Of a stretch of DNA of 64,000 nucleotides, positions 26,490 through 51,727 are shown piece after piece (position 1 is the first letter of the stretch; the number at the start of each line of letters is the position of its first letter). The DNA comes from Tridacna crocea (taxonomy: Eukaryota; Mollusca; Bivalvia; Cardiida; Cardiidae): contig OX031064.1 of NCBI GenBank assembly GCA_943736015.1, forward strand, positions 38,181,361-38,245,360, given 5' to 3'. The notes beneath the pieces are model-generated. The model was not told the origin of the DNA and did not search any database. It worked only from the letters and a program-made list of their open reading frames with translations. The translations under genes and the position numbers were made by a program.

Positions 26490-26718
26490 TTAACCCTATA
26501 CCCCATAAGGCATTTCTATGGTATCTCTAATTGACCCTGAATAACAGCAAGGATTAAACTGTTTCTTATGTGTATATAACACCTTTTGATAGCATAGAAA
26601 ACATTGTGGCAAAAGGTGAAATTGCTCGTCAAGAGCAATTTCACCTTTTGCCGCAATGTTTTCCAAAGGTTCCTACAAACAATGCGTAGAAATGAGTATC
26701 TGTGGAGTAAAGGGTTAA
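26490..26718 (+). mobile_element. TTAA-hairpin MITE, GGTGAAATTGCTC subfamily
   Basis: TTAA at 26490-26493 and 26715-26718. The hairpin at about 26597-26662 reads GGCAAAAGGTGAAATTGCTC with the matching arm GAGCAATTTCACCTTTTGCC. Both arms differ from the main family at paired sites. Confidence 0.85.
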
Positions 26719-26762
26719 AAAAAAGAAATACATGTACCTTTCAAATAGCATCATTTGGGTTG

Positions 26763-28009
26763 ATAACTTATTACCAAATGACTAAATTTTAGACTTATCC
26801 AAACTGAAAGCTTTTGCAGACAACAACATAAAAACAACTGAAAATTTGAAATTTGTGTTGTGAAGGGTAGAAAATATTGTGCGAAAAGGAGAAAATGCTG
26901 GTTACCTTCTTTTCCAACAATGTTTTCTAATGCCTGGCGTCCACTAGGACGCGGAGGGGACAAGGAAGCTTCGCGGTAAAAATAAATTGATTTCGGCATA
27001 CCTTCCTGTGAGAAACATCGATTCCGTACAGAAATGTATTTATCCTCGGACTGTCCCCGGACTTCTTGCTAGCATATTTGGGATTGTCCGCGTAAACAAT
27101 CCGGAATAGTTCCCGAAAGTTCAGGCGTGAAAGCGGATCGTTTCAGGACAACGTGGACACGTTTAGGATTACACCAGGAAACGTTTGGGACAACCAGTTT
27201 CAGTGCACGACAATAGGCGGAGACGGTACGGAAATGCAGAGGTTGCATTCATAGTTTATATTAGAGTGCTTGGATCTCTCGTTCCATAGACTGACATCCA
27301 CAAATTTGCAGTGTATCAGAGAAAATAACGTCGCTCTAGACAAACAAGGATTAAAATTACCACAAACTCCGGTCGACTGTTTTTTTCCATGGTCAACTTT
27401 TTTTTCTTTTTTGTCTCGGCATATTGTGTGCAAGAGAGATTAAAAACATCTCCACCCTGGTGAAAGTCAAACTGCAAGTGACAGAGCACCGATTTTGATA
27501 TGTTTAGGGAGTGGGTTGCCTAGATACGAAAGTCATGCGACATTTTCCATCCATTAGTCAGAGAGCATACCGCGACCGCTCTGAACGTTCAGGAAAGGTT
27601 CCGCGAACCTTCTGTATCGATTCCTCCTAGTGTCCGCAAGCTGTCCGCGTTGCTGAAGCTTTCTGGAATATATGCGGAAGACTCCGGATGTCCTGACGAT
27701 GTCCTTACGACGTCCTGATGACAACGCGGACAAGATGCCGAAGGTGTAAGGAAATTCATTTCCGCGTCCAAATTTTGCTCTCGATCAAAATTTCGACGCG
27801 GACAAAATTGCCGATCCGGAAGGCTCCGAATCGGGCTGAAGCATCTAGGACAACAATAAGAGGCCATCAGGAACATGCGGAAGCTTTGCCGAATATTAAA
27901 TTTGTTGTCCGCATGCTATCCGCGTATTGTCCTGGCCCTAGTGGACGCCTGGTCTAAAGGCTTTTTTCTCAGGGGCGTCAAAAGTAGGGATTGTGTGGTA
28001 ATGGGTCAA
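26763..28009 (-). mobile_element. TTAA-hairpin MITE interrupted by a 1-kb transposon
   Basis: The left part runs to about 26929 and the right part resumes at about 27952 (TCTAAAGGCTTTTTTCTCAG) to the GTCAA end at 28009. The hairpin itself is partly deleted. Confidence 0.75.
26930..27956. mobile_element. Nested DNA transposon with CCTGGCGTCCACTAGG ends
   Basis: Terminal inverted repeats CCTGGCGTCCACTAGG (left) and CCTAGTGGACGCCTGG (right), inserted in the MITE with a likely TCTAA duplication on both sides. Near the right it is rich in CGGAC/GTCCG motifs. The open frames inside (27589-27876, 27718-27957) show no transposase domain, so it is probably non-autonomous. Confidence 0.75.
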
Positions 28010-28064
28010 CCCTTTACTACGAAACAAAATTTTAGATCTGTTTGAATTGAAAGCATAATCATGT

Positions 28065-28468
28065 CCTTAAAAGGCTATGTAGTCTCCTACGCTTTCTTAG
28101 ATTTCCCGCCAAAAATTTTTAAAAAAGCATTGTGGGAATGTTATGTAGCTAGCACGTGACTATTGACGCTTTAATTTCATAACATAACAAGCATGCAATT
28201 ATTTTCCATAAGTCCTCTTCTGACGCTATGTTTGAAGCTTCATCTGTATATTTCTGGTACGTAAATGAACAAGTTGCTCATGTAAAAATAGACTGTGTTT
28301 CCCGTCGGTGTCGACCTTGGCCCTGGTAAATCGCGAATTTCTCTTGTTGTCGGATGGTTTTCGACCACTGGAGTTTTATGAATGAAAATTAAAAGGCTTC
28401 GTCAGTATAAGGATGACTTTTCTGTATCTTTGTAAAATTCTCATCCCAAAATCTGAAGGGCCTCCTTA
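28065..28468 (-). mobile_element. F5 inverted-end element, inverted copy
   Basis: Shares TGAAGCTTCATCTGTATA-type sequence, CATGTAAAAATAGACTGTG and the AAATCTGAAGGGCC end with 21712-22232 in reverse orientation. Confidence 0.6.
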
Positions 28469-28694
28469 ACCCATTACCACACAATCCCTCCTTTTGACCA
28501 CCCTGAGAAGGAAGCATTTACAAAACATTGTGAGAAAAGGAGAAAATGCTGGCAACCAGCATTTTCTCCTTTTCCCATAATTTTTTCTACCCTTCACAAA
28601 ACAAACTTTAAATTTTCAGTCAATTTCATTTTGTTGTCTGCAAAATGCTTTTGATTTGGACAAGCCTAAAATACTGTCTTTGGTTTTGAGTTAA
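28466..28694 (+). mobile_element. TTAA-hairpin MITE, complete
   Basis: TTAA at 28466-28469 and 28691-28694. The hairpin centre is GGCAACC. Confidence 0.85.
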
Positions 28695-29106
28695 ATTGCT
28701 TTTTCTACGAGTCATTTTTAAAACTCCGGACTGGCTGGTAAAGGTTTCAAAGGCAAAGGCCTCAAAGAATTCAATTCATTTTGTCTGCCACAATGTCTCA
28801 GGGGTTAATTCACTTTACAGAATTTAATTGAACAGACACCCATGATGTACAATGACAGAGTAAAGTATAACCATTGTGCATGAATAGCCAATGTGGAGCA
28901 TAAAACACCATATCCCTTCAACAATGGGACTTGTAAAGCATATTATCATGCCCATTATCACTAGATAAAGAATCCCGGGTCTAATCGAGATTATCTGTCA
29001 CAGTTTTGAAAATTTCATCTGAAGATTTGGTCAATGCTGAATATACCAACACATGACCACCTGCAGAAAATGTGTGTAATCCCACAGCAAACCTCTCTTA
29101 GTAATA
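28695..29106. other. Unassigned sequence
   Basis: A fragment of MITE right end at about 28715-28745; the rest is unrecognised. Confidence 0.4.
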
Positions 29107-29553
29107 TTAACTCATTACCAAACGGCAAAATTGTAGGTGTGTCCTAATCGAAAGCATTTGCGGATAACAAGATAAAGGTGACTGAAAATTTGAAATTTGT
29201 TTTGTGAAGGGTAGAAAACATCGTGTTTTTCAGCATTTTTTCCTTTTCCTATAATGTTTTCTTAACCCTTTACCACACAATCCCGACTTTTAACACCTCT
29301 GGGAAAGAAGCCTTTTGAAAACATTGTGGGAAAAAGAGAAAATGCTGGTTACAAGTGCTTGTAACCAGCATTTTCTCTTTTTCCCACAATGTTTTCTTCC
29401 CTTTCTAAAACAAATTTCAATTCTTTAGTCACATATATTTTGTCGTCTGAAATTCTTTCAATTTAGATCAATCTAAAATTTCATTGTTTTGTAATGGGTT
29501 AAGGCTTCTTTCTCAGGATCATCAAAAGTAGGGATTGTGTGGTAATGGGTTAA
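29107..29553 (-). mobile_element. TTAA-hairpin MITE hosting another copy
   Basis: Outer TTAA at 29107-29110 and 29550-29553. It is interrupted at a TTAA inside the TTTTCTTAAGGCTTC segment by the copy at 29262-29502. Confidence 0.85.
29262..29502 (+). mobile_element. TTAA-hairpin MITE nested within a relative
   Basis: TTAA at both ends (29262-29265, 29499-29502). The hairpin loop region carries an extra GTTACAAGTGCTTGTAAC palindrome at its tip. Confidence 0.9.
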
Positions 29554-29579
29554 AAAAAAACAGTGATGAAGGGAAAATG

Positions 29580-29728
29580 TTCATTTTATGTTCAACATCG
29601 TTTTCAACATTATTATAGTCAGTTATGCAGCTGCCAGTGCACCCATCTATATTTTCAGGACCTTTATACCGATTGTTCACAACAGCATTCTTCCCAAACC
29701 AATGGCTGCTTTTGCAATTAAACATCGT
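29580..29728 (-). mobile_element. SINE fragment
   Basis: On the minus strand it matches the body of the SINE at 14682-14980 (TTGGGAAGAATGCTGTTGTG, ...ATAATGTTGAAAACGATG). The tRNA-like head is missing. Confidence 0.6.
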
Positions 29729-29942
29729 TTAACTCTTTACCAAACGACAAAATTTTGGACTAGTCCAAATTGAAAGGATTTGCAGAAGACAAATAAATGT
29801 AAATCAAAAATTGGGAAGGGTAGAAAACATTGTTGGAAAAGGAGAAAATGCTGGTTTCCAGCATTTTCTCCTTTTCCAACAATGTTTTCAAAAGCTCTTT
29901 CTCAGGGTCATTAAAAGTCAGGATTATGTGATAAAGAGTTAA
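29729..29942 (-). mobile_element. TTAA-hairpin MITE, complete
   Basis: TTAA at 29729-29732 and 29939-29942. Both arms read GTTGGAAAAGGAG / CTCCTTTTCCAAC, a paired G-to-T and C-to-A difference. Confidence 0.9.
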
Positions 29943-30789
29943 AAATCATATTCACAAGCAAGACAAGTATAAATCCCATCAAATGAGAACATCAAGAAAT
30001 ATTGAAGCATAGTATACAGGCGACTGCAAATTGTAAGGCCAAAAAACTTCACAGCCCTGATTAAAATTGCTGAGTAGTGCCCTACCTGTATTATCAACCA
30101 ATTGTAGACATTCAAAATTCCTCGCGTTTTTCAATTCAGAATATGTTTGTATGAAACAAACCCCTGAGGCATGTTTCACTACTATAAGTTGCTCTTGCAG
30201 CAAGTGTTAATCAAGATCAGGCAGCACAAAACATCCAGCCGGATCTTTGATCTACACTGTTTGTTTTGCTGATACACTACAAACAAAAGTAGCCGTGAAA
30301 TAGTGATTATTTGGGTTATATTTTTCAGATAAAAATTTCTGTGGTTTACTGGACCCTTTAACCCTTGGGCTACTAAGCGTGAGTGACTGACCTCAAGACA
30401 GTGTAGATAAAGACTAGACTGCATAGAATGTGCAGTCTGATCTTGAATATACACTGTGTAGTAAGGATATATGTTTCCTCCAAATACTTTTAAAATAGCA
30501 ACATTTGGCTTTTGAATGTCAACTTGAAAATTTCATGCAGATATAAGTTATTTGGCAGGATTAGGGTTAAGGGTTAGCCCTTCAGGCCTCCTTCTAAAAT
30601 AGAATTTTCCTGTGTCGCAAACATTCCTGTGATTTACTATCCTATGAAAATGTAATAGAAAAATAGATCTACTCTATTGAATTTTTTTCTTTCATAACAA
30701 CTTCAGTTTGGACAATTAGTTAGATCTACTTTTTTACTCATTTTAGTTGAAAATACTTCAACTTATAGCTAATTAACATGAATATTGTA
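29943..30789. repeat. GATCTTGATC-type repeat fragments in unassigned DNA
   Basis: Two copies of the small inverted repeat at about 30205-30260 and 30395-30465; the latter contains CTGCATAGAATGTGCAG. No exon was seen. Confidence 0.45.
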
Positions 30790-31978
30790 GCTATAGAGCG
30801 GGTGCACGTAATTCCGAACGACGTTTAATTCCGAACAAGTTCCCATTTATGACCTTAGTTCTTTTGCACTATACTACAGTACAGATATGACATCATATGT
30901 ATATCAAAACTATATTACTCTTTCCTGTTTCGCCGGTTTCGAGTCGATACTGTGATTATATCTTCCACAATTTCAACTTTGTTTTGCAACCCTTAATCGG
31001 GTGAGTAAAATTGTGACATTCGCTAATCCAACGACACTGTTTCTTAAGGTTACCTCACGGCACAAAAACGCTAAAAATCTGATTTTGTATTGTTTTCTTA
31101 ATGGTGAAACTATTATTTACCAGCACCAACAGACATTTTAAAGCATTACAAATGGTTAATGAAGATATTAGACTGTTCGGATTTAGAACCTTATTTTCCC
31201 AGACTGGTTTTAATTACGAATTAGGTAAATAGTGTTAACTGCAATAACTGAAGTTGCGATAATAGTGAGAAAATTCGTTCACTGATACGAGCTCGTTTCA
31301 TTTGCATGGGTCATGTTATAAAAAATATATCCATTGTTATGTTGATATCTTGAGCATTGCTGTAAAATGATGTTGAGAACTTTGTGACAATAGGAGATAT
31401 TGAGCATCATTAGCAAATATTCCTTATGGTCGCAATATTTTCAAAACTTTTCAGCTATGCAAACTAGGCAACAAGATTTCAAGGGATTTCTCCTCCTGTT
31501 CTGTTCGGTGATTTAGTAGATCTAGATCTAGTGACCCATAGATGTTAATTAGACTGTTATCCCATCAGCATACCACGATATCTGTGAGAGAACCCCAGTC
31601 AAGATAGATATCTGTCCAGAGTTGTCGTTGTTTGCATACACAAGTGTGTTCGCAACTACCCTCAACTTCTGGTACAGGTAAAGACTGCTATTAACGTGTG
31701 TTTGAAGGGGTAATTTTTGAAAATTGCCAACGTGTTCGGATTTACAACCACATGTGTTCGGATTTATAACCAGTGTTCGTAATTTCAACCCTTTGGTTAC
31801 ACTGAAGAAATGCCCATAACTCAATATCGGCGCACTATATTGTGTTAGTTATTAGTCACAACTGAAAGGAATACACAAAAGATGATACAAATGACATCAC
31901 ATGTTCAGTAAGTGGTTTTATTTACGAACAGCAGATCATCATGCTTAGGTGTTCGGTAATGGGTACACTCGCTCTATA
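30790..31978. mobile_element. DNA transposon with TATAGAGCG inverted ends
   Basis: The left end reads TATAGAGCGGGTGCACGTAA...TTCCGAAC and the right end GTTCGGTAATGGGTACACTC then GCTCTATA, giving imperfect inverted ends of about 30 bp. The motif GTTCGGA/TTCCGAAC recurs inside at several sites. At about 1.19 kb with no transposase frame it is non-autonomous. A TA duplication is possible. Confidence 0.65.
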
Positions 31979-32694
31979 TCGTAAAATATAATGCTTATTT
32001 GAAAATGAAATCTTTCTTTCATAAGTTGAAAGCTTCTTTCATAGCAAAGAATGAATGGAGCTTTCTCAAAGAGGAAAACAATCATACTTAATCCTACATG
32101 TAGTATTTATATCTAGCTCTTTATTCTTTTAATTCAAGAGTATAGTTTGAAAAAGAAACCTGCCAGTGCCTGTCGTGAGGTAAATCTACCTTCTTTTATT
32201 AAAACTAAAAGGTGTATGGAATCTCCCGCTCAGGAAACTCACACTAACTGGGTCTCAGCAACCTTACCGGAACTTTGGCCCAAACGAATGATTGTCCGAT
32301 CCGGGACCGAAACGACACATGGCCGAAACAACCCGAGAACCTTCGTAACTGTCAGAAAAAGTCCCCTTGTTAAATACTTTTTGATGTAAGTAAAACGACG
32401 TTTTGCGGCGACTTTTCCAATTCGTAGTATGGATAAAATAATCTGCTTGACTTGAAAAGCAGAAAACTATATGTTACCAGACAACTGAGATAAATTAGAT
32501 AAGATTTGTTAAATAGATACAGAACCGGACATAACCTTTTTCCGGATACACGAATCGTCATTTGAAGTGCATAACCTTTTGCTCAGCGGCAAGTTATTCG
32601 AAAAATGATGATCGATGGACTCAAATAGGATACAAGATAGATATACAACAGTTTATACTCTAAGCCTGTTTGAAATATATTGACCAGCTGAGGG
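31979..32694. other. Unassigned sequence
   Basis: Contains an 80-codon open frame (32147-32389) with no domain. Nothing else recognised. Confidence 0.4.
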
Positions 32695-33030
32695 GTTTAG
32701 CTCTTTTCAAAACAACAAAATTTTAAACTTGTCCAATTCTACAGCATTTGTACCTTCAGTCTGAAGGTGTCTGCTCCGATGCTATTTTTGTGACTGGTCT
32801 TCGCTAACAAAGACCAGTCACAAAAATAGCATCGGAGCAGACACCTTCAGACTGAAGGTACAGCATTTGCAGAAGACAAATTTATGTCACTGAAAATTTG
32901 GAACTTGACTTTTATAGTGTGTACAAAATTGTGAGGAAAGGAAAAATGTGGGTTACCAGCATTTTTTCCTTCACTACAATGTTTTCAAAAGGATTCTAAG
33001 GGTTGTTAAATTCTGGGTTAGCCTAACTCT
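32695..33030 (-). mobile_element. TTAA-hairpin MITE split by a foldback element
   Basis: The MITE is recognisable on both sides of 32751-32860. Its hairpin is at about 32933-32985 and its ends are eroded. Confidence 0.7.
32751..32860. mobile_element. Perfect 110-bp foldback with target duplication
   Basis: Two 51-bp arms (TACCTTCAGTCTGAAGGTGT... and its exact complement) around an 8-base loop at 32802-32809. The flanks repeat CAGCATTTG directly (32742-32750 and 32861-32869), a 9- or 10-bp target duplication. Since CAGCATTTGCAG is the normal uninterrupted MITE sequence, the insertion boundaries are exact. Confidence 0.9.
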
Positions 33031-33526
33031 TACCAAACAACAAAATTTCAAACTTGTCTATATTGAAAGAAATTGCAAGCTGTACATGTCAGAATTTGGG
33101 ACTTATCCCAAAAGAAGTTGTGTATGACTTCCTTATTTACTTAGAAAGTAAAGTTTTTGGGAGAAAAATCTTACCTTAAAAGAGCTCCAGATAAGATCGG
33201 GCAATGGTATTCTAAATCTATAATTTCTCTTCCAAACCCTTCATTGTGTGTACTTATTAGAATTGTCTTCAATGTCTTGATGAGATGATTCTAATGAGTA
33301 CTCATAGCATAGAGCTTAGTGGAGAATAATTGATATTTTCATTCTGAAACCAAAATTACTTCTACTATCTGGAGCTCTGTACCTGTAGCATTTCTGACTG
33401 AATCTTTAAACACATATTTTTTGTTAGGCCTGATTGAAAATTTGAAATTTGAAGTGGGAAATGGAGAAATTGTTTTTGAAAGGATTCTTTTTCAGGGTTG
33501 TTTATATGTAATTGTTGGGTTAGTGT
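33031..33526. other. Unassigned, with MITE scraps
   Basis: Partial left end of the MITE at about 33025-33085 and a right end at about 33430-33525; no exon seen. Confidence 0.4.
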
Positions 33527-33748
33527 TTAACCATTAACACACAATCCCGACGTACAAGGACTGTGGCTTAAAAGTTTTTTGAGAACACTGTGGGATATTG
33601 AGGAAAAACTTAAAGACAGCATCTTCTTTTTTTACTACAGTGTTTTCTTCTTATCAAAGGAAACCAAATTTTAATTAGTCAACTTTTGTCATCTCCAAAA
33701 TGCTTTCAGTTTGGGAAAGTGTATAATTTTGTCCTGACAAAGGGATAA
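33527..33748 (+). mobile_element. TTAA-hairpin MITE, diverged hairpin
   Basis: Left TTAA at 33527-33530; the right end is mutated (GGGATAA). Confidence 0.6.
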
Positions 33749-34274
33749 GGTATAATGAATAACACTGCTAATGTAAATTTCAGGCCTTTGAATGGTGAAG
33801 AATTTCTTCTAACAGTTGTGTTATTTCAAACGCCTTAAGGCTTTTTCTCTGAAATTTTGAATAAGATTTGGAAATGGTCCTGCCTTGGTCTTCTTCAAAA
33901 TTTTGCAAAAGAATTAAATTCCTTTAAAAACTGTGGTTGCTATGGCAATGAAACTGGAAAAATATTGAAAATCTTTGAAAATTTTCTTACGATAAGCACA
34001 AGGTACTATGAAGGTATTCTTTCTCTAATCACTCCATACTTAGCTACAAATTAGCTTAAAATATTAGGCTTTATATACCTTGATTTTTTTTTAAAAAGTT
34101 AAGATTAATTTCCAATTTTTAACATAATATCAAACATCTGATTAAGAGGGATAGTTGATTATGGTTGAGGACCATTTCTCCATCCCTAGATCATGCATAC
34201 TTTATGTCAACATAATATGATTTATTATTACAACAGACTCACCTCATCATCAAGAAAGATAGAAGATAATTACG

Positions 34275-34432
34275 ATGGAGTCCGACATAGTTGCGAAATA
34301 CAACTGTGAAGGAGATGGAAGATGCCGGGACATGTTTTGGGAGTTCATATACATAATTGTGATTCCTGTTGGCGTGCTGTTTGTGGTTGTCCTTATTGTC
34401 AGTATCATCTTGTGCTGTGGATCATGTAAAAG
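34275..34432 (+). CDS. Sarcoglycan-like membrane protein, exon 1 (TM exon)
   Basis: Coding exon 1 of a single-pass membrane protein. The exon probably starts at 34237 after TTACAACAG. An in-frame TAG lies 12 bases before the ATG at 34275, so translation starts here in this transcript. A GTGAGT donor follows 34432. Residues 1-22 (Cys 11, Cys 17) are hydrophilic. Residues about 24-46 (FIYIIVIPVGVLFVVVLIVS) form one membrane helix. CCGSC at 47-51 and basic residues follow, giving a cytosolic C-terminus and possible palmitoylation sites. From memory, the helix and CC pair followed by the 37346 tail resemble the end of alpha/epsilon-sarcoglycan (dystrophin complex). No ectodomain exons were found upstream, so this may be an alternative promoter product or a different short protein. 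Confidence 0.75.
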
Positions 34433-34720: not shown

Positions 34721-34812
34721 CAGAAAAAATAATACTGATTGCTAGCATTTAATCCCTTTTCCCACAATGTCCCACAGCCTTTCAAAACTTAGCTCATTCA
34801 TAATTATGATCA

Positions 34813-35010
34813 GGGCCGGTATTCACCAACCATTCTTAAGAACATTCTTGGTCTTATTCTTCAAATGTTGTTAATTTGAAAGTAACAGAACTTCTGATTG
34901 GCTAAACCAAATGGTTTAGCCAATCAGAAGTTCTGTTACTTTCACAGTCAGAAAATCTTGAAGAATAAGACAAAGAATGTTCTTAAGAATGGTTGGTGAA
35001 CGCAGACCCA
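34813..35010. mobile_element. CCAAT palindromic MITE (F2), reference copy
   Basis: Almost the whole 198 bp folds on itself: GTATTCACCAACCATTCTTA faces TAAGAATGGTTGGTGAA, and the centre is CTGATTGGCTAAACC / GGTTTAGCCAATCAG. Each arm therefore carries a consensus CCAAT box (AGCCAATCAG). Other copies are at 52416, 54061, 54969, 57077, 57287 and 62158. Confidence 0.85.
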
Positions 35011-36782: not shown

Positions 36783-36785
36783 ATT

Positions 36786-39159: not shown

Positions 39160-39369
39160 TCTCAGCTCACCCTTTTTAAAAACCCTGGGAAAGAAGCGTT
39201 TTAAAAATATTGTGTGAAAGGGAGAAAATACCCAACACCTTTTTCTCCTGTTCCAAGGATGTTTCCTATCCTATCAAAGAAAAATTGCCAAAAAAATTGA
39301 TCCTCATTTAAAGTGTTGTCTACAGATGCTTTCATTTTTGACAAGACTAAAATTTTGTCGTCTGGTTAA
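39160..39369 (+). mobile_element. TTAA-hairpin MITE, diverged
   Basis: The hairpin is broken. Its right end shares TTAA 39366-39369 with the next copy. Confidence 0.6.
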
Positions 39370-39595
39370 CTCTCTCCCAAACAAGCCCTTGTTTTTACGT
39401 GTCTGCAGTACAAGTCTTTTGAAAACATTGTGGGAAAAGGAGAAATTGCTTGTAAGGAGCACTTTCTCCTTTTCCCACAGTGTTTCCTGTCCGTTTGGAT
39501 AATTTTCTGCCATTGTTATGAAAGTTAAAATTGTCGTCTGCAAACTCTTTCAGTTTGGAAGAGTCTGAAATTTGTCATTTGGGAAAGGGTCAAGA
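39366..39595 (+). mobile_element. TTAA-hairpin MITE, CAAGCCC subfamily
   Basis: Begins TTAACTCTCTCCCAAACAAG like 17366-17595, and like it follows another copy directly. The hairpin carries GAAATTGCTTG. Confidence 0.75.
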
Positions 39596-40858: not shown

Positions 40859-41087
40859 TTAACCCATTACCACTCAATCCCTACTTTTGACGCCCCTGAG
40901 AAAGAAGCCTGTTGAAAACACTGCGGGAAAAGGAGAAAATGCTGGTAACCAGCATTTTCTCCTTTTCCCACAGTGTTTTTTACCCTTCCCAAACCAAATT
41001 TTAATTTTTCAGTCAGCTTTATTTTGTCGTCTGCAAATGCTTTCAATTTGGACCAGTCTAAAATTTTCTCGTGTGGTAAAGAGTTAA
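40859..41087 (+). mobile_element. TTAA-hairpin MITE, complete
   Basis: TTAA at 40859-40862 and 41084-41087. The arms read CACTGCGGGAAAAGG and CCTTTTCCCACAGTG. Confidence 0.9.
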
Positions 41088-41112
41088 AGCAGTATAATCC
41101 ATCCACATATAT

Positions 41113-41338
41113 TTTCTTACTCGATAGATACTCATTTTCACATATTAACAACAGAGAGCTTTTGAAAACATCGTGGGAATAGGAGAAATTGCTCGTAACG
41201 AGCAATTTCTCCTATTCCCACAATGTTTTCCACTCAATCAGATATCTGTGTCCTCATTTGTCCATATTTTTGACATCATATCTTTATTTGCTGCTGAAAT
41301 GGAAGAGCCTGAAATTGGCATATCAGGTAAAGAGTTAA
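41113..41338 (+). mobile_element. TTAA-hairpin MITE, TAGATACTCATTT subfamily
   Basis: The left part has GATAGATACTCATTTTC, shared with 50667 and 51500. The hairpin is GGAATAGGAGAAATTGCTCG with a fully paired CGAGCAATTTCTCCTATTCC. Right TTAA 41335-41338. Confidence 0.8.
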
Positions 41339-41529: not shown

Positions 41530-43035
41530 TTTAGCTCACCTGAGCACAACGTGCTCAAGGGGAGCTTTTAGGATCACCCAGCGTCCGTTGTCTGTCTTGC
41601 GTCGTCCGTCGTGCGTCGTCAACAATTCTTTAAACATCAACTCCTCCTAAACCGCTGGGCCAATTTGGACTAAACTTGGCAGGAATGTTCCTTGGGAGGT
41701 CCTCTTTAAAAATTGTTCACAGAATTTGATTCCATCAAAAACTCTGGTTGCCATGGCAACCACATGGAATTTTTTAGCAAATTCTTTAAAAATCTTCTCC
41801 TCTGAAACCGCTGGTCGGATTTTGAAATAATTTCACAGAGATGTTCCTTGGGTGACCCTTTTCAAAAATTGTTCGTGAAATTTTGATCCGTCAAAAAATG
41901 TGGCTCTGGTGAAAGGGGGCTACTTGCACTATACAGAAATGAAGAAATTCTTAAAATAATCTTCTCTGAAACTGCTGGTCAGATTTTGAAATAATTTTAC
42001 AGAGTTGTCCCTTGGGTGACCCTTTTCAAAAATTGTTCGCGAAATTCGCTGGTCGGATTTTGAAATAATTTCACAGAGATGTTCCTTGGGTGACCCTTTT
42101 CAAAACGTGTTCGCGAAATTTTGATTGGTCAAGAAACATGGCTCTGGTGAATGGGGGCTACTTGCACTATAGGGAAATGAAGAAATTCTTGAAAAATCTT
42201 CTTCTCTGAAACCGCTGCTCAGATTTTGAAATAATTTCTCAGGTATGTTCCTTGGGTGACCCTTTTCAAACAGTGTTCGCGAAATTCTGATCAGTCAAGA
42301 AACATGGCTCTGGTGAATGGGGGCTACTTGCACTTCAGGGAGATGAAGAAATTCTTTAAAATCCTTCTTCTGTGAAATGGCTGGACAGATTTTGAAATGA
42401 TTTCACAGAGATGATCCTTGGGTGACCCTTTTCAAAAATTTTCACGAAATTTTGATTTGTCAAGAAACATGGCTCTGGTGAATGGGGGCTACTTGCACTA
42501 TATGGAAATTAAAAAAAATTCTTGAAAATTCTTTTTCTCTGAAACCCCTAGTCCGATTTCAAAATAATTTGACAGAGATGTTCCTTGGGTGACCTTTTTC
42601 TAAAAGTGCACATATAATTTTGATCCATCAAGAAACATGGTTTTTGTGAATGGGGGCTACTTGCACTATACGGACATGATGAAATTCTTGAAAATTCTCT
42701 TTCTCTGAAACCCCTGGTCAGACTTTAAAAGAAATTGTTCGAAATGTTCCTTGGGTGACCCTTTTCAAAACTTGTTCGTAAATTTTGATCCATCAAGAAA
42801 CATGGCTTTGGTGGATGGGGGCTACTTGCTCTTATACAGAAATGAAGAATTCTTAAAAATTCTTCTTTTTGCAGTTGATTTCGAAATGACTTTTACAGGT
42901 GACCTTTTGAAAATTGATTGGCAAAATTATAGATTTGGTTCCAATGTTTCAATACCTCAAAAAAAAAAAAGAAATAGGCTATGGTCATCTCAAAAATTCA
43001 GGTGAGCGATCCAGGGTCATCTTGGCCCTCTTGTT
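41530..43035 (+). mobile_element. Tandem-core element, type T2, plus orientation
   Basis: Left end TTTTTAGCTCACCTGAGCAC with a hairpin, GTCGTCCGTCGTGCGTCGTC, CTCTGGTTGCCATGGCAACC, then about seven units of about 166 bp marked by ATGGGGGCTACTTGCACTA (42153, 42319, 42485 and others). Right end AGGTGAGCGATCCAGGGTCA...GGCCCTCTTGTTT. It is the inverted counterpart of 10123-11314, and could lie within the 3' UTR of the upstream gene. Confidence 0.8.
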
Positions 43036-43039
43036 TTCT

Positions 43040-43175
43040 TTGATAGGATTGAAAACATCATTGGAAAAGGAGAAAATGCTGGTGACAGGCAATTTCTCCT
43101 TTTCCCATGACGTTTTCAAAAGGCTTTTTTCCCAGGGTCATTAAAAGTCAGCATTGTTCAGCAAATGGTTTAAAT
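43040..43175 (-). mobile_element. Left-truncated TTAA-hairpin MITE
   Basis: Hairpin GGAAAAGGAGAAAATGCTGG with CTCCTTTTCCCATGACG, directly after the T2 element. Confidence 0.6.
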
Positions 43176-44185: not shown

Positions 44186-44189
44186 ACTA

Positions 44190-44415
44190 TCCCATTACCA
44201 TACAATCCCTACTTTTGATGCCCCTGAGAAAGAAGCCTTTAGAAAACAGTGTGGGAAAAGGAGAAAATGCTGGTAACCAGCATTTTCTCCTTTTCCCACA
44301 ATGTTTTCTACCCTTCACAAAACAAAATTCAAATTTTTGGTCACTTTGATTTTGTCGTCTGCAAATGTTTTCAATTAGGACAAGCCTAAAATTTTCTCAT
44401 GTGGTAAAGGGCTAT
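44190..44415 (+). mobile_element. TTAA-hairpin MITE, ends eroded
   Basis: CCCATTACCATACAATCCC to GTGGTAAAGGGC, with a perfect hairpin at about 44242-44308. Confidence 0.8.
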
Positions 44416-44734
44416 AAGATTGGTGCTAAGAACAGTGGTGCTACTATATACTTACTTGAGTACTATTTCAGCATGTACTCTGCCATTTTCAATTTTTTGT
44501 TACATAGAAAAATATACTTTATACATATTTTTTACCCATTTTTGTTTGTTTTATGGGACATGTCTGCCCTTCTATGCAAGTGTTGTGATTTTGTATTAGA
44601 ATTTTAGATTTAGGTATATTAAAAAGAAAAAGAGTGTAGATTCTCTGTGTGCTTTTATCTTTTTTCTTGTCATATGCATTAGATTGTAAAGAAGACATTC
44701 TGTACCTTTCAGCCATGTTGCATGTTTTATCGTT

Positions 44735-44995
44735 TTCAAAGCAATCCCAAATTTAAATGATAACATAATTGAAAATGCAGAAAACGCTGGGACCCAGCTT
44801 TTTTCTCTGTTTCCCACAACAGTTTTCTAAATTTTCAACACCATGCTCTGAACAATACCAAGCTTTTACTGCTCTGACGAAAAAGGCTTTTGAAAACATG
44901 GGAAGCATTGAAAATGCTGGTAACCAGCATTTTTTCTGTTACATTTTCACTTTTTCCACCACATGTTTGATCTTCTAAAGACATTCAATTTTTAT
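44735..44995 (+). mobile_element. Two degraded TTAA-family hairpins
   Basis: Hairpins at about 44775-44825 and 44893-44955, with arms eroded. Confidence 0.5.
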
Positions 44996-45004
44996 GAGAT
45001 ATTT

Positions 45005-45225
45005 AATCCTTTACAAAACGAAAAAAGATTAGACTGGTTCAAGTTGAAGGTACTTGCAGACGACAAAATAAACATAACTCAAAATTTGAAATTTCTTTCC
45101 AGCAGGGTAGAAAATGTTGTGTGAAAAGGAGATTACCAGCATTTTCTCCTTTTCATACCATGTTTTCAAAAGGCTTCTATCTCGGGGTCGTAAAAACAAG
45201 GGATTGGTTGGTAAACTGCAAAACT
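45005..45225 (-). mobile_element. TTAA-hairpin MITE, left arm shortened
   Basis: CCTTTACAAAACGAAAAAAG to GGTTGGTAAAC; the left hairpin arm has lost about 15 bases. Confidence 0.65.
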
Positions 45226-45329
45226 GCTTGAAAAGATAGTAAGTTGTATTAGTACTGGTTTGAGAAAGCCAGAAAACACATGTGTGTCATCAACTGCCAT
45301 GTTATGACCTTAGCTGTTAAACCCCAATA

Positions 45330-45535
45330 CAACCAAACAACCAAACTGAGGGTATTTGCAGACGACAATTTAAATATTGCTCACATAATGGAGTTGTTCT
45401 TTGAAATGGCAGAAAATGTTGTGGGAAAAAGAGAAAATGCTGATTACCATCATTTTCTCTTTTTTCCCCAGAACATTTTCAACTGTTTTATTCCCCAAGG
45501 TTGGGTAGACTCTGGATTATTTGGTAAAGGGTTAA
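45330..45535 (-). mobile_element. TTAA-hairpin MITE, left end lost
   Basis: Right TTAA 45532-45535; hairpin at about 45412-45480. It follows a SINE-tail scrap (45280-45335). Confidence 0.65.
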
Positions 45536-45589
45536 ACTGTAGTGTACCAAATGAAAGGGATTTTTTTCCCTAAGAAGAAAAGACAAGAC

Positions 45590-46150
45590 GTTCCGAAATT
45601 TAACCTGCAGACTGCTCAGCACGGCTGAAGGACCTGTTGCACACAGTGTAAATGAAGACCAGACTCCATTAAACGTGCAGTCCGATCTTGGATCTGCATT
45701 GCCCAATAAGGAGAACTTTTTTTCCCCAAAGTACCTTTGAATTAGCAAACTATGGTGTGTAGTATCAGTTTGAAAGATTCAGTCGACTAATTTGCCAGTT
45801 TAATGATTAAAACGTTTCAGCAAGACCATGTTTTACAGAGCTGCACATTATGGAGATGAGATCAGGCACTTTAGAAAAAGAATCCTAATTTTGATATTTC
45901 ATTATTGGCAAAAAAGTTGGTCTTCAAGGTTGCATTTTATTTCCCCAGCAGGGGAAAAGTAAAAAGATTAGGGATTTATATATATAGAAAGTCAAAAGTA
46001 CGTGGAATCAATCCTTTATGTATAAAATCAATTCATCATCATGTTGAAAACGTTTTGCCACAAGATATACTGTCTTTGTTTGTCACCAGTCTCTTTTTAA
46101 GGTTAATATTCTGACAAAAAGAAAACGAAAAAGGTGAATATAGAAAAAAA
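45590..46150. other. GATCTTGATC repeat copy and unassigned DNA
   Basis: A repeat at about 45610-45700 (CAGACTCCATTAAACGTGCAG, GATCTTGGATC). The remainder is unrecognised. Confidence 0.4.
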
Positions 46151-46345
46151 ATGAATAAGCCATGCTCTGTAAAAAAGGGGTTTAATGCATATGCAAAAAG
46201 TATCGACTCAGGTCAGCCTGCGCCGTCTGCGCAGGCCGAACTGAGTCAATACTTTTTGCCAGTGATAAGTTCTCTGCATGTCAGAGGACCAGTCATCCTC
46301 ATGATTCAGTGGGTTCTTAGGAAAAACATTTCGCTATAATTATGT
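46150..46345 (+). mobile_element. F4 hairpin element, uninterrupted
   Basis: GCCATGCTCTGTAAAAAAGG, TTTAATGCATATGC, then a hairpin AAAAAGTATCGACTCAGGTC / CGAACTGAGTCAATACTTTT and TTCTCTGCATGTCAGAGGAC. It provides the empty-site comparison for 15019-15440. Confidence 0.75.
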
Positions 46346-46411
46346 AACGACATGCCTGGTATCATAGATGACGCAGATGCATTGAACCCCCCCCTTTTGC
46401 CAGAGTGCCAC

Positions 46412-47334
46412 TTAAATTATCTGCAGAGCCACCATGGTTTTCAAGAGCTGAACAAGTTCTGCTGCCATCTTGGGATCCATGGTCGGGTTGTACCTTAGAA
46501 GCATTGACTGTTGCGTAACTTTTGAGGGTGCGGCCATCTTCCCTTGTCCTAGAGCTCTGCCGCGCTGTGTTCCCGATGGTTGCGGGTTCTGGGAGGAGAG
46601 AAGCTGAGATAACAGCATTTGCTCAATCTGGGTTTCCAGAGATAGCTGTGGAACGAGTAAGGACATTCCTGGAAGCTGACCCATTGGAAATGCTGATGGG
46701 CGCGCAGATCGGCCAAAGGTTGGTAGTGGTTGCATAGGCTGTCCTACAATCGGCTGTTGCTTCATAGTTTGTCCCATAGCTGGTCGTGGCATAGCTTGTT
46801 CTTCACCAGCTTCTTGTTGAACTGGTTGTCCTGCAGCCGGTTGTTGTTGCATAGGTTGTCCTGAAGCCGACTGTTGTTGCACAGGTTGCTCCTCACCTGC
46901 TTCTTGTTGCATAGGTAATCCAACTGGTAGTTGTTGCTGGTTGGGTTGTCCTACAGTTGGCTGCTGTTGCAAGACTTGTTCTTCACCGGGTTGGTTTTGC
47001 AAAGGTCCTAAAGCCACCTTTTGCTGCATAGGTAGTCCGATACCTGGTTGCAGTTGAATTGTTTCCGAACTGGGTTGCTGTGAAATAGGTTGTCCTACGG
47101 CCGGTATAGATAATAGCTGTGGGTCAGCTGATATTGGAATGGACGGAAGTTGGTTTCCTGTGCCTAATTTATTTTGTTGACCACTACCCGGTAGAAAGTT
47201 CTCTCCCGCCAGAAGTGCGTAAAGGCCTTTCATATCCGCGCCGATGTCCTTTTTAGGCATACCAAATTGTCGACCAGGTAGCAAAGGATTCGTCTTCATC
47301 ACACCCGGTCCTTGCAACTGACCAGCACTCAGTC
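46412..47334 (-). CDS. Secreted Gln/Pro-rich repeat protein, exon 2
   Basis: Main exon of a 326-residue protein (58 + 923 coding nt). Acceptor TTTATTTAAACAG; stop TAA at 46412-46414. After the signal peptide the mature chain has no Cys. Residues about 25-105 are Gly/Pro/Leu-rich (GMPKKDIGADMKGLYALLAG). Residues about 136-220 hold a 30-residue repeat starting GEEQ three times at exact intervals, made of GQPMQQQP-type units, with Gln near 30% there. The C-terminal about 35 residues (NPTMDPKMAAELVQLLKTMV) look amphipathic and helical. Gln-rich secreted proteins without Cys occur in invertebrate extracellular matrices such as shell or byssus; that role is inference only. It sits about 4 kb from the Kazal gene on the same strand. 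Family not recognised. Confidence 0.85.
46718..46987 (-). repeat. 90-bp in-frame tandem repeat within exon 2
   Basis: Three units of 90 bp, each beginning with the codons for GEEQ. The third is more diverged. Confidence 0.8.
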
Positions 47335-47950
47335 CTGTTTAAATAATAAACAGATTTGTAAGTCTTCAAATATATACTGCCAATGCGCAAAACAGAATGA
47401 TATATATGTATAACAATGTAACAATTCTTATTCGGTGGTACCGTCTTCTCGCTGTTAAAAAAGGGAAAATGTTCATAAATATATACTATTATTTTAAACA
47501 ATAGGTTATACATTGGGCAATGAAAAATTTAAGGCAATATTAGTTTGTGAAATGATAACTTGTCAGTGTTTGAGTGTCTCATATTATAAGTACACTCGAT
47601 TATGTTCACGCTGTGATTAATTTTATCAAGCTTTCTTTTTATAGCGTCAAAAAAACATGGTATTCTGTTCATGCTTCCACTCGTCACAACTCGGTCGTTT
47701 CCATAACTGCAAGTAACTTGGTCGACTGATCACCTGAGGTCAAATCCAGTGAAAATGTTACAATGTCCTGAGGTTTTATTGTCTTTTATATGATACTCTT
47801 ACAAAAGAGAGCAAGGCCTTGTCACCAGTTTAGTATCTCGTATCTTATGTTGAAAAGCCACCATGTCCTACTAGCAGAATGTCACACTCTTCTGAGGTGA
47901 TAAGATGGTTTCTTAGACCTAACAGTCATCAAAATTAAAAAAAAATATCA
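47335..47950. other. Intron of Gln-rich gene, unassigned
   Basis: No repeat or exon recognised in this part of the intron. Confidence 0.45.
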
Positions 47951-47964
47951 TACATGTACATTAT

Positions 47965-48478
47965 TAGTTGTACGATTAGGTGGCAGGAGACTTGGAAAGT
48001 TGTTCACGGCTGTGGTTAATCATGTCGGCCCAAGCCGAAGGCGAGGGTGCGACATGAATCACCACAGCCGGGAACAACTTTCCAAGTCCCCTGCAGCCTG
48101 ACCGTACAACGAATTTATTATACTGCAAAGTTTCACGTTTCAAAGCGCGCTAATCGAAATTTTCCTGTATTACTATCTCACAAATCGAGCATGATGACGA
48201 AATAGAAATTCCCTTCTGAATGCCCCAATTCAATGAAAACTGATTGGAAACTGACGTCACTAAAACGTATAGTTTGGTGCATAAATGTGCAGTCCAGATG
48301 GTGATCGATCGACGCCGTCATTTTGGATGTTGTGTTGCACGTGTAGCGTTGTTTACGGGGGACTCAAAAGGGAAACTGGCTTTGCGTGGTTTTAGCCAGG
48401 GAACATGATACATAATATATGTTCCCGGCATGTTAACCAATCAGATTACGAGAAATTTCTTTGCAGTATGATAAAACA
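47965..48478. mobile_element. Foldback element in the intron of the Gln-rich gene
   Basis: The left part is a strong hairpin: AGACTTGGAAAGTTGTTC and CACGGCTGTGG face CCACAGCCGGGAACAACTTT. The outer TTATACTGCAAAG (48118) faces CTTTGCAGTATGATAA (48460), suggesting a composite of about 0.5 kb. Confidence 0.65.
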
Positions 48479-48951
48479 CATGATAGATCTACCATGGCGT
48501 ACTAACAAAATATTGACGTGTTTCATTTGTCAAAATTTTCTTATAATACGATAACTGTATACACAATTTAATTATAGAGGCATGTTAACAAGATAGGACG
48601 AGAAACTGGCATGATAAAATGGTAACCGAATGATAAGATATTGCTTCAAACAGACAACACGGTATTAAAACTAAGAATAGTTTGAGGAAAAAGCACGACC
48701 CTTAGAGAAGATAGCGTAAAATAAGTTCAGAAAATAGCTCGGCCTTTGACAAGATAGCATGAGGCATTGACCCTTTAAGCGATAGACTCAGGCTGAACCT
48801 ACTTTTTGCGGACATTGTAGATGCAGCAAAGGAATTAAATCCTTAATATTATAAAAAAAAAAAGTAGTTAAACAATTTGTAACACCATCATGAGTATTCT
48901 TAGACAAAAGTCTGTCCTATACCAAGTTCTCTGCATGCAATTTTTAGGCAT
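48479..48951. other. Unassigned intron sequence
   Basis: Short A11 run near 48853; nothing else recognised. Confidence 0.4.
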
Positions 48952-49180
48952 TTAACCCTTTCCCAAATGACAAAATTTTGGACTAGACCAAATTGAAAGC
49001 GGTTGCAGACAACAAATCTAATGCAATGCAAATGATGATTTTTGTGTATGAAAGGGTAGAAAACATTGTTCGAATAGGAGAAAATGCTGGTTACCAGCAT
49101 TTTCTCCTTTTCATACAATGTTTTCAAAAGCCTTCTTTCCCAGCATCGTAAAAAATAGGGATTGTTTGGGAAAGGGTTAA
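48952..49180 (-). mobile_element. TTAA-hairpin MITE in the intron, complete
   Basis: TTAA at 48952-48955 and 49177-49180, with a good hairpin (GTTCGAATAGG at the left base, slightly unpaired). Confidence 0.85.
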
Positions 49181-49982
49181 ATAGCAATTTACCTGAAAAA
49201 ATTTCAGAACGCCTATTCTGCTATAGGGTTTAGCAGAAAGATGCTTGAATTACATGGAGTTATTTAGATTTGTGCGTTGGTAAAGAACATTGACGGAAAA
49301 GAAGAAAATGCTCGCTAAAAGAGTCGTATTCTTTTCTTACAACGCTTTCGAAAGCTATAATATTCATGATTGTTACAACACAGACTATGATTGTTTATTT
49401 AGTTAAGGACGTGTTTCAGTGAACAAATAGTAAAAAATTATAGTAAATACCATTATGTGCAAAAAATGCATGGATCATGGCTATTTTGACTCGATATCAA
49501 CGACAAAAATACATGTGCAGTAAGATGCGCGCGTACATTTGTCATATACGCTTTTAAGCTGATAAATAAAATGTAACCTACACATTCAATAAGTAGGAGA
49601 GACCGACACATTGGGATCTTCAAAGAATATCTGGTCAGAAAGTCTCAAGTTATCGGAAATACGGAAAACAGATCAGATTGCACGTTCTGTGAAGTCTGAC
49701 ATTGATCTGTATTGTCCGCAATACATTGCACGGCATGCTTCGTGCTTAGACAGTATGACTGTGTTCTACAAATCTTGTTCGAAGAAGTACATTATTCAAC
49801 CTACACAACGATAAGTTTGACACAAAACAATTAAAGATTTCTCTGATATAACATACAGATTCCAAAATTCTTTTTGTGAAAGTTCAAAGTTTCATCTGTC
49901 TACCAAACTTACTATCAGAAATATTACTAGAAAAGTTTTCTGGTAGCAAATAAGTAAGTTGTTAAAAGACTTAAGTACTTAC
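49181..49982. other. Remaining intron, one eroded hairpin
   Basis: Eroded MITE hairpin at about 49275-49345. The rest, including a 67-codon open frame at 49611-49814, is unassigned. Confidence 0.4.
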
Positions 49983-50040
49983 CGATATAACATATCGAAA
50001 TAAAGAGACTGATTTTCGTAACGACTCCAAATTCCACCAT
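49983..50040 (-). CDS. Secreted Gln/Pro-rich repeat protein, exon 1 (signal peptide)
   Basis: Begins with ATG at 50040-50038 and reads MVEFGVVTKISLFISICYIG across the splice, with donor GTAAGT. The phase (ATC G + GA) matches exon 2, which continues LSAGQLQGPG. The hydrophobic run plus LSA-G gives a plausible signal peptide cleaved near residue 23. An AAATATAT sequence and a possible acceptor (ATCCAACAG) lie just upstream, so a leader exon is possible. Confidence 0.85.
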
Positions 50041-50275
50041 TCTGCCACTCTGTTGGATATATTTAGAAAAGAAGAACTTTAAATTTTTTTCCAAGTACCA
50101 AGTTACTTAGTTGAAATGTTTGCCTGTGCAATGCCCTGCAATCTTGACAATTAAAAGGAACGCTGATGCTTTTAAATGGAATGGTGATTCAGTCCACAAG
50201 GTTTTTCGTGACAAATGCCATCACGAACATAGAGAGGGAAGATATTAATTATACTTTAGTCTTTTGTTTATCATC

Positions 50276-50497
50276 ATGCAATCGTCATTTTTCATGAAAG
50301 TAGTACCCCTCATTTTTTATGCGGTTCTGTGTTGGTCAGTGGTATGGGCGTATGTTTTGTACACAAGAAGTCATTGGCAAAGCTCTTTAGGGCACAAGCA
50401 GAGTTTTGACGGATCTCTGAAAGTCATAATACAGGTAGTTGCTGCCGTGATATGGCCTTTTCTTTTTGAACAAGAGAAATCATTTTGTCGTCGTTAA
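50276..50497 (+). CDS. Possible small hydrophobic protein
   Basis: An uninterrupted frame of 73 residues from ATG at 50276, divergent from the Gln-rich gene 235 bp away. It reads MQSSFFMKVVPLIFYAVLCW then SVVWAYVLYTRSHW, so it starts with a signal-anchor-like segment, and a second hydrophobic stretch (VIIQVVAAVIWPFLF) lies near the end. No family recognised and no splice or poly(A) support. It may be a chance frame. Confidence 0.25.
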   Translation: MQSSFFMKVVPLIFYAVLCWSVVWAYVLYTRSHWQSSLGHKQSFDGSLKVIIQVVAAVIWPFLFEQEKSFCRR

Positions 50498-50550
50498 TAA
50501 CGTTTTTTTTTTTCGGTGTGTGTGTGGGGGGGGGGGGGGGGGGGGGGCTA
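50498..50550 (+). repeat. Poly-T/poly-G low-complexity tract
   Basis: T10, GTGTGTGTG, then an uninterrupted G run of about 22 bases at 50526-50547. Confidence 0.9.
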
Positions 50551-50666
50551 ATAACCACAGTTACTGAGACTTAGATGTGCTTCCAAATGGTTAAGCGCAA
50601 AGTGTGTGTACAAAACGATTTATTATTTTTTTGTTAAGATCTAAAGCATGTGTGTCCTGTTTGGTC

Positions 50667-50886
50667 TTAACCCTTTACTCCATAGATACTCATTTCTTCG
50701 CATTGCTTGTAAGAGCCTTTGGAAAACATTCTGGCAAAAGGTGAAATTGCTCGTGACGAGCAATTTCACCTTTTGTCACAATATTTTCTATGCTATCAAA
50801 ATGTGTCATATACACATAAGAAACGGCTTCATCCTTGCAGTTCATTTAGAGATACCATAGAAATGCCTCATGGGATAAAGGGTTAA
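50667..50886 (+). mobile_element. TTAA-hairpin MITE, GGTGAAATTGCTC subfamily
   Basis: TTAA at 50667-50670 and 50883-50886. Hairpin GGCAAAAGGTGAAATTGCTC / GAGCAATTTCACCTTTTGTC. Confidence 0.85.
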
Positions 50887-50984
50887 ACAGCCAATTGGCT
50901 ACAATGACTGACTGAAGCACACCAGAATGTACATGTACGTCAATTCTTTCATTGGTACTTATACAAATACCTATTCTACCCATA

Positions 50985-51185
50985 TTTCTTTATATATAGA
51001 CATGTACATGTATATTCAGAATGTGAAGTATCTACAGTTATCTATTCCACCCATATTTTTTTATATAGACATGTACATGTATATTCAGTATGTGAAGTAT
51101 CTACAGTTATCTATTCTACCCATATTTTTTCATATAGACATGTACATATATATTCAGTATGTGAGGTATCTACAGTCATCTGTAT
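50985..51185 (+). repeat. 69-bp minisatellite, about three units
   Basis: GACATGTACATGTATATTC recurs at 50999, 51068 and 51137, a period of exactly 69 bp. Because 69 is a multiple of three the frame stays open (YIDMYMYIQ), but there is no sign it is a gene. Confidence 0.85.
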
Positions 51186-51499
51186 CTAGCGTAAGTTGGC
51201 TTTGTCGTTTGAAAACTCTTAACATTTTTTGTTTGATTAATTTTCTATAATACTGAAATCAGCAATGAATTGTGCTGTCAAGCTATCTATGTTGTTACAG
51301 GGATATATATTTGGTTTCACACGCTAAATTGATACAGTAGTTCCCAAACTTTCAGTTGTCATCAAAGATGCTTGTACAAAAAATTTGGAACTACTTTTTG
51401 TTGCCGACATTATCTTCCGCTTCTGCTTTGTATTTTTGTATCAAAATGAATGTCGAAATCCCTGGACATGTATTTACCAACAATTTCTAAATTACATTC
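51186..51499. other. Unassigned sequence
   Basis: Nothing recognised. Confidence 0.4.
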
Positions 51500-51727
51500 T
51501 TAACCCTTTACTCAATATATATTCATTTTAACACAGTGAAGAAAACAGCCTTAGGAAAACATTATGGAAAAAGGTGAAATTGCTCAAATGAGCAATTTCA
51601 CCTTTTTCCACAATGTTTTCTATGGAATCTGTATCGTTAAACTCCTTAATAGCCACATTTCAGTTGTTGTCTGCAGCTTCTTTGAATTTGGGACGGTCTC
51701 ACAATGGTATATCAGGGAATGGGTTAA
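51500..51727 (+). mobile_element. TTAA-hairpin MITE, GGTGAAATTGCTC subfamily
   Basis: TTAA at 51500-51503 and 51724-51727. Hairpin GGAAAAAGGTGAAATTGCTC with TTTCACCTTTTTCCAC. The G/C pair of the 26490 copy is an A/T pair here. Confidence 0.85.

Follow-up and report, generated by a model that had tools for sequence, protein, structure and literature searches.

The stretch of DNA considered here, hereafter the window, is a 64,000-nt piece of the genome of the bivalve Tridacna crocea (assembly GCA_943736015.1, contig OX031064.1, positions 38,181,361 to 38,245,360 of the forward strand), and all coordinates below are counted within it. The window is AT-rich (GC content of 32%–42% in 2-kb steps), no tRNA gene was found in its 64 kb, and it holds 15 open reading frames (ORFs) of at least 100 amino acids, several of which overlap copies of a repeat that we call the main family. 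Five ORFs were tested against Pfam, and two of them have Kazal-type domains, one above the cut-off and one just below it. Our subject is the main family, whose copies carry a central palindrome that can fold into a long hairpin, and in which the two arms of that hairpin have undergone matched changes.

A 231-column profile built from 16 full-length seeds matches the window 97 times on both strands after overlaps are removed, and many of these matches are partial. A full element is about 230 bp long, with TTAA at its start and end. Of the 17 matches whose two end tetranucleotides are aligned, 15 have TTAA on both sides and the remaining two on the right only; the other 80 matches are shortened or gapped at their ends, and local alignment favors matching ends. 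The short inverted ends are of the type TTAACYCTTTACC, and after TTAA the terminus reads TTAACCCTTTACC or TTAACTCTTTACC, with CCCT in some copies and CTCT in others. For piggyBac/TTAA miniature inverted-repeat transposable elements (MITEs), the motif CC[C/T]T is given as following TTAA (PMC2872659). Short length and high copy number, which mark the same group, are found here. Kolobok elements, with 5′-RR termini (PMC9587614), were considered and set aside because the main-family ends do not fit. The repeats are described below as probable nonautonomous, TTAA-flanked MITEs of the piggyBac type. Relatives were also sought in IMG/VR and GTDB genomes. A degenerate pattern of the core yielded 5 and 88 stretches, respectively, with a single match in each stretch among the matches listed (80 of 88 for GTDB), and a profile search over these 93 loci returned three weak matches (18–20 bits) that were taken as chance.

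The central palindrome comprises 33 pairs, formed by columns 109–141 with columns 143–175 around one unpaired base. Eight copies were folded as single strands with DNA parameters and gave stems of 30–38 pairs. The initial annotation had singled out six copies (17366, 26490, 29729, 41113, 50667, and 51500) as subfamilies that differ from the main hairpin at paired positions in both arms. All six are present, and each carries at least one matched two-arm change when scored against the main-family consensus, as was done for every named copy (Table 1). The B, C, D, and E copies among them behave as subfamilies, whereas 29729 is a main-family copy with no subfamily of its own. Two exchanges that had been quoted can be assigned to single pairs in 26490 and 50667: GGAG/CTCC to GGTG/CACC is pair 129/155 changing from A-T to T-A, and GGGAAAAGG to GGCAAAAGG with GCC is pair 122/162 changing from G-C to C-G. 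These two copies, both of subfamily C, carry the same four matched pairs (122/162, 129/155, 134/150, and 139/145), and their single changes are not in common. Matched changes lie at pairs 125, 134, and 139 in 41113 (B) and at pairs 116 and 134 in 17366 (D). Pair 140 in 51500 (E) is matched only under one gap placement, and it is counted in the comparison with the consensus and left out of the 73-copy count given below. Subfamilies B, C, and E thus have three to five matched pairs each and zero unmatched double changes. Their aligned flank sites differ from the main family at 47%–60% (38%–40% for D), with alignment at 55%–60% difference near the limit of trust, and their arms at 11%–17%. The termini were also said to have changed. 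Over 14 + 14 end columns, five of the six copies do differ, at 5–9 of 26–28 end sites, and 29729 differs at 2 of 28; some main-family copies differ equally (0–7), so that the inner flanks show the change more clearly.

All copy counts refer to this one window. Seventy-three copies have a nearly complete hairpin with at most eight gaps and were usable, and the other 24 of the 97 matches were excluded for gaps. Among 2322 two-sided cells in the usable copies, 1854 are unchanged, 381 are changed on one side, 47 are changed on both sides and remain paired (matched doubles), and 40 are changed on both sides and are unpaired (unmatched doubles). When the letters of the 3′ arm were shuffled, matched doubles numbered 16.6 ± 3.7, with a maximum of 29 in 2000 shuffles, and unmatched doubles 22.5. 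Double changes of either kind total 87 in register, compared with 36–51 when the partner was slid by one to four columns (eight slid registers). The result holds in 39 gap-free copies (35 distinct), where 25 cells are changed on both sides as opposed to 7.2 ± 2.5 after shuffling (reached in 0 of 500 shuffles) and 7–14 in slid registers; their covariation score is 0.127, against 0.083 shuffled and 0.032–0.068 slid. Allowing for the mutation load of each copy still leaves 47 matched doubles against 23.5 expected.

Shared ancestry was addressed by simulation on a tree. The first, unscaled simulation overshot the single changes (600 vs. 381; 47 matched cells reached in 19 of 500 runs) and was rescaled to them. 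In the scaled version, the 27 distinct types of matched pair seen compare with 8.2 or 10.1 under two rates (reached in 0 of 400 runs each), and 47 matched cells were reached in two and seven of 400 runs. These analyses confirm that matched changes in the hairpin arms of the main family are real and beyond chance. The excess weakens when the six subfamily copies are removed (30 vs. 21.7, P = 0.05), and among 39 well-preserved copies outside the subfamilies there are 13 matched doubles against 3.4 expected (P = 5e-5). In the terminal inverted repeats (TIRs), scored in 31 copies (411 cells), there are 10 matched and seven unmatched doubles, and eight of the 10 matched doubles fall at one column.

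A different picture emerges from changes in single copies. In a main cluster of 29 copies, the 66 arm columns hold 33 alleles seen only once (0.50 per column) and the 111 non-CpG flank columns hold 73 (0.66), and alleles seen three or more times number 0.136 per arm column and 0.423 per flank column. The 33 once-seen arm cells include six that are matched, representing four events (in copies 29729, 6750, 4475, and 45004), along with 22 mismatches and five wobble pairs. Inserted copies are thus not kept paired. By comparison, all four changes common to the C copies are matched, as opposed to four matched events and 27 unmatched cells among once-seen changes (Fisher P = 0.0013, for classes chosen post hoc). 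The initial annotation proposed that its reading would fail if arm mismatches accumulated as fast as changes in the flanks. This is nearly what the once-seen alleles do, and it is not what is found between lineages.

Between lineages, the clearest test comes from less diverged sequences. The consensuses of three groups defined by their flanks, U (10 copies), S (four), and T (four), differ at 19 of 108, 18 of 110, and 20 of 99 flank sites and at 0 of 65, 0 of 64, and 0 of 63 arm sites (P = 8e-5, 2e-4, and 3e-5; 1e-4, 3e-4, and 5e-5 without CpG columns). Flank distance was the basis for choosing the groups, and this inflates the flank differences; U and T were picked by hand from nearest neighbors inside the main cluster. 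Diversity per column in the 29 main-cluster copies is 0.06–0.07 in columns 122–161, 0.14–0.32 in flank bins, and 0.16–0.20 in the bins with the TIRs. Toward the outside of the hairpin, columns 112–121 and 162–171 are flank-like, at 0.16–0.20. In 43 fuller copies, differences from the consensus affect 0.085 of arm sites and 0.209 of flank sites. The core therefore looks constrained in those lineages that spread.

This last observation bears on a purely mutational account, in which the palindrome is functionless and replication errors that copy one arm onto the other by template switching are all that keeps the arms alike. Rewriting of this kind spreads or reverts mutations without lowering the expected rate per site, so by this reasoning arm copying alone does not explain why arms evolve more slowly than flanks, with 0 of 63–65 arm sites changed where flanks differ at 16%–20%. 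The once-seen arm changes, being mostly unmatched, also speak against it. Additionally, if template switching worked best near the center, pairing should fall with distance from it, yet no clear fall was seen in 52 copies (Spearman 0.20, P = 0.27), although it is in the inner core that the sequence varies least. Instead, the outer edge of pairing near columns 107–109 is rather sharp, at 0.86 for column 109, 0.32 for 108, 0.76 for 107, and 0.10 for 106.

Nevertheless, template switching has left footprints. The center of the copy at 29262–29502 measures 22 nt, as opposed to 8–9 nt in well-preserved copies, and the extra 13 nt are the reverse complement of the arm continued through the loop. A variant at column 127 is paired in this copy and unpaired in the copy at 6522–6750, its second nearest by flank. 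Matched changes at adjacent pairs occur outside the subfamilies four times, against 0.80 expected from random placement (reached in 13 of 2000 trials), in copies 2857, 4237, 43037, and 45340. Of these, 2857 and 4237 are decayed, with eight and 11 mismatched pairs. Single changes are not clustered in this way (87 adjacent vs. 83.6 expected). The mechanism is known for RNA genes (PMC8794818) and for quasi-palindromes in yeast (PMC3820800). In the report on RNA genes, template switching that creates or repairs stems likewise accounts in one step for multibase matched changes and loop changes, multibase changes are enriched, and isolated changes are called uninformative (PMC8794818); the present case differs in that it concerns a DNA transposon whose decaying copies serve as a built-in control. 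A further main-family copy, at 7980–8195, has a shortened hairpin center and shares with 29262–29502 the matched 127/157 change, although by flank neither copy ranks among the six closest to the other.

Matched changes in single copies also occur in a second palindromic family that is unrelated to the main family. Its six copies (34877, 52480, 54122, 55034, 57135, and 62163) have a central 33-pair hairpin. With the 34877 copy as the reference, the 198 cells of this hairpin include four matched double changes, two unmatched ones, and 11 single changes, where 0.67 doubles are expected. Its outer arms align in five of the six copies (45–51 identities, 7–15 mismatches, and 2–14 gaps), and the sixth gave no alignment. 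Matched change is therefore not peculiar to one sequence, which favors a mutational contribution. Weighed against the slow evolution of the core, such evidence still leaves arm copying as the sole cause a doubtful explanation.

We favor, with a probability only slightly above one half, a reading that combines the two processes: the main family is a TTAA (piggyBac-type) MITE whose core is constrained in the lineages that spread and whose arms are occasionally rewritten by template switching. The initial annotation had posed selection for folding and arm copying as an either/or choice. Each finds evidence here, the former in the constraint on the core and the latter in the footprints, and neither suffices alone. 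Under the favored reading, the central palindrome of about 66 bp would act in cis as a core that has tended to be kept by lineages able to spread, a constraint visible in the window. It may be kept because it aids transposition, either by forming a DNA hairpin or cruciform or by offering a protein a symmetric site to bind. Once inserted, a copy is not maintained and gathers mostly unmatched arm mutations. New core variants would become paired chiefly when a polymerase stalls and then folds back or switches strands, so that one arm is rewritten from the other, a step seen as footprints in a few copies and, for the changes in the subfamilies, assumed. Subfamilies may then have been founded by copies in which rewriting had left a well-paired core. 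A stricter version, in which pairing itself is needed for transposition, hairpin-templated rewriting renews the arms, and freshly perfect copies found new subfamilies, is a possibility that we entertain only tentatively.

The closest match among known systems, likened by description, is the CMITE group of Acropora corals (PMC2872659), which has TTAA flanks and mostly CCCTTT-type ends. The internal region of CMITEs is more conserved between families than their TIRs are, as in the main-family core, and the authors, who print a 60-bp consensus of CMITEs, suggested a role for it in transposition (PMC2872659). CMITEs are about 100 bp long as opposed to about 230 bp, and the region conserved here is a 33-pair palindrome with matched changes; words beginning with palindrom-, “hairpin,” and “secondary structure” are absent from the main text of the CMITE paper (PMC2872659). 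More generally, no report of matched changes in a MITE hairpin was found among the titles and abstract openings of the literature matches listed, which is weak evidence of absence. Decayed copies provide a built-in neutral control that separates the effect of mutation on the hairpin from what spreading lineages keep. If the pattern proves to be genome-wide, it would offer a natural test of whether TTAA MITE transposition needs a palindromic core, as well as a way to measure the rate at which template switching rewrites the arms of inverted repeats in an animal genome.

Several results weigh against the combined reading. The matched share of doubles over all copies was reached in 28 and 31 of 400 simulated runs, which is a marginal excess, and without the six subfamily copies it was reached in 130 and 116 of 400. 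In the 39 well-preserved copies the unmatched doubles, too, exceed expectation (8 vs. 3.7, P = 0.04), and every double change in the D copy at 39366 is unmatched. The 28 decayed copies have no excess of matched doubles (17 vs. 17.8), which places the signal in the subfamilies and the well-preserved copies. In the main cluster, the 69 cells of arm alleles seen at least twice are 12 matched, 35 mismatched, 21 wobble, and one gap. As many as 25 of the 28 repeated arm alleles are scattered over flank clusters (p of 0.1 or more) and look recurrent; the three that follow the flanks are 116 T>C (matched in two of three carriers), 113 A>T, and 121 G>A. Close sisters have unmatched variants in common, 113 A>T in 17164 and 23319 and 121 G>A in 23319 and 53655, so a mismatch is not always a bar to spreading. 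Finally, the contrast between once-seen and common alleles is weak (Fisher P = 0.04 when common means at least three occurrences and 0.37 when it means at least two). Because most repeated arm alleles are scattered and few flank alleles (13% of 97) cluster by flank, taking once-seen alleles as changes that arose after insertion is suggestive at most.

What the core would do in spreading lineages need not involve a hairpin. It could be a dyad-symmetric duplex site for a dimer, either the transposase or a host protein, with matched changes serving to equalize the two half-sites. The ends of piggyBac and piggyBat elements, which share TTAA with the main family, include palindromes of about 14–19 bp that are bound by two transposase C-terminal domains (PMC11707139). 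Such dimeric binding keeps the duplex-site reading open, with the difference that the main-family palindrome is central; no transposase of this family came to light, though no search was aimed at one. The inner core is also less diverse than the bins that hold the TIRs, and matched changes include about as many transversions as transitions. Set against these points, 33 contiguous pairs running up to the center are long for a dimer site, as generally understood, the fold-back footprint in 29262–29502 indicates that the strand folds at times, and subfamilies B, C, and E have transversions within the conserved part. We consider a duplex site as the whole explanation unlikely. Within this window, a function of pairing and a function of symmetric sequence cannot be told apart.

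Ectopic gene conversion centered on the palindrome might instead have carried a small number of hairpin versions between elements whose flanks differ. Consistent with this, five copies with flanks diverged by 10%–20% have arms identical to the consensus, and the C-G version of pair 116/168 is present in D, in two main-family copies, and in one decayed copy. However, the left and right flanks are correlated across the core (Mantel r of 0.53–0.57 for 50 copies and 0.28–0.37 for 29 copies, a set in which the two halves of the left flank are uncorrelated with each other at r = −0.01), and therefore no breakpoint is seen at the hairpin. The exchange of flanks at this point is thus unsupported by the Mantel tests. 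Gene conversion by itself also leaves the matching of new changes unexplained, and we regard it as decidedly unlikely.

The initial annotation further suggested that an RNA hairpin might be selected for the production of small RNAs of 20–24 nt, and for this no support was found. The stems formed by single strands of the eight folded copies (30–38 pairs with DNA parameters) would be compatible with such a role, and human mir-548 arose from Made1 MITEs (PMC1784062), which resemble the main family in being near-perfect palindromes of similar arm length (37 bp in Made1). Made1 is palindromic end to end, however, whereas the main-family palindrome is central and separate from the TIRs. Searches of the window gave zero Rfam matches at the gathering score; the 25 subthreshold matches in 20500–20900 belong to many unrelated families, the best of them, to mir-9457, scoring 46.8 bits against a threshold of 90. 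The distinct matched changes comprise 14 transitions and 13 transversions, a ratio similar to that of single changes (210 and 171). This absence of a transition bias does not suggest G-U intermediates, which a selected RNA stem would be expected to pass through. Moreover, a survey reports no dedicated endogenous small interfering RNA pathway in molluscs (PMC12479628). Selection for small RNAs is accordingly very improbable.

Table 1. Palindromic elements in the window, with changes counted relative to the main-family consensus
Feature	Positions	Strand	Hairpin	Remarks
Reference main-family element	20595..20823	+	20700-20770	TTAA ends; perfect hairpin; 34 pairs; -39.1 kcal/mol; z -17.3
Subfamily C element	26490..26718	+	26597-26663	TTAA ends; 4 matched and 0 unmatched doubles, 2 singles; flank 70/121, arms 10/66 different
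Subfamily C element	50667..50886	-	50722-50788	TTAA ends; 4 matched and 0 unmatched doubles, 3 singles; flank 67/112, arms 11/66 different
Subfamily E element	51500..51727	-	51555-51622	TTAA ends; 5 matched (122, 129, 134, 139 and, depending on the gap, 140), 1 single; flank 57/121, arms 11/65 different
Subfamily B element (copy 41113)	41109..41338 (start approximate, left end degenerate)	-	41164-41232	3 matched, 1 single; flank 67/121, arms 7/66 different
Subfamily D element	17366..17590 (far end without TTAA, approximate)	-	17419-17489	2 matched and 1 unmatched double, 1 single; flank 48/119, arms 7/66 different
Second D copy, sister of 17366	39366..39593	-		Broken pairs 116 C-A, 134 G-A, 139 C-A; 0 matched and 2 unmatched doubles, 3 singles; flank 45/120, arms 7/66 different
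Main-family copy	29729..29942	+	29823-29889	One matched change, 120/164 G-C to T-A; one single
Main-family copy	40859..41087	-		Matched 116/168 change, also in 56335-56563; related copy 24276 has one side only
Copy with 13-nt palindromic loop insertion	29262..29502	-		38-pair stem, 4-nt loop, -43.3 kcal/mol; template-switch footprint
Copy with matched changes at neighboring pairs 117 and 118	43037..43170	+		5 further pairs mismatched
Copy with matched changes 114, 115, 127	45340..45535	+		AACATT and AATGTT swapped between arms; 4 further pairs mismatched
Second palindromic MITE family	34811-35010, 52414-52615, 54058-54258, 54970-55169, 57076-57279, 62101-62299			Ends GGGCCCGTATTCACCAA-like

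Other palindromes and repeats are found in the same window. A palindrome with 45-bp arms (two mismatches) at 32761–32850 is nested in a main-family copy and is flanked on both sides by CAGCATTTG, which by eye resembles a target duplication of 9 bp. The palindromes at 46193–46259, 52976–53040, 20443–20510, and 54708–54766 are related to one another, have a GCCTGCGCAG-type center, and may represent a third hairpin family. Another near-perfect palindrome, at 55737–55795, has 29-bp arms and, at the E-value used, matched nothing else in the window. An ORF on the minus strand at 46412–47317 would code for a glutamine-rich, repetitive protein of 301 amino acids, with no Pfam match at E 0.01. Lastly, 10183–11057 and 42047–42867 are two inverted arrays of about five 166-bp units each, which are 79%–88% complementary over the five longest arm pairs. 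They are reminiscent of the satellite-like repeats that reportedly occur in oyster Helentrons.

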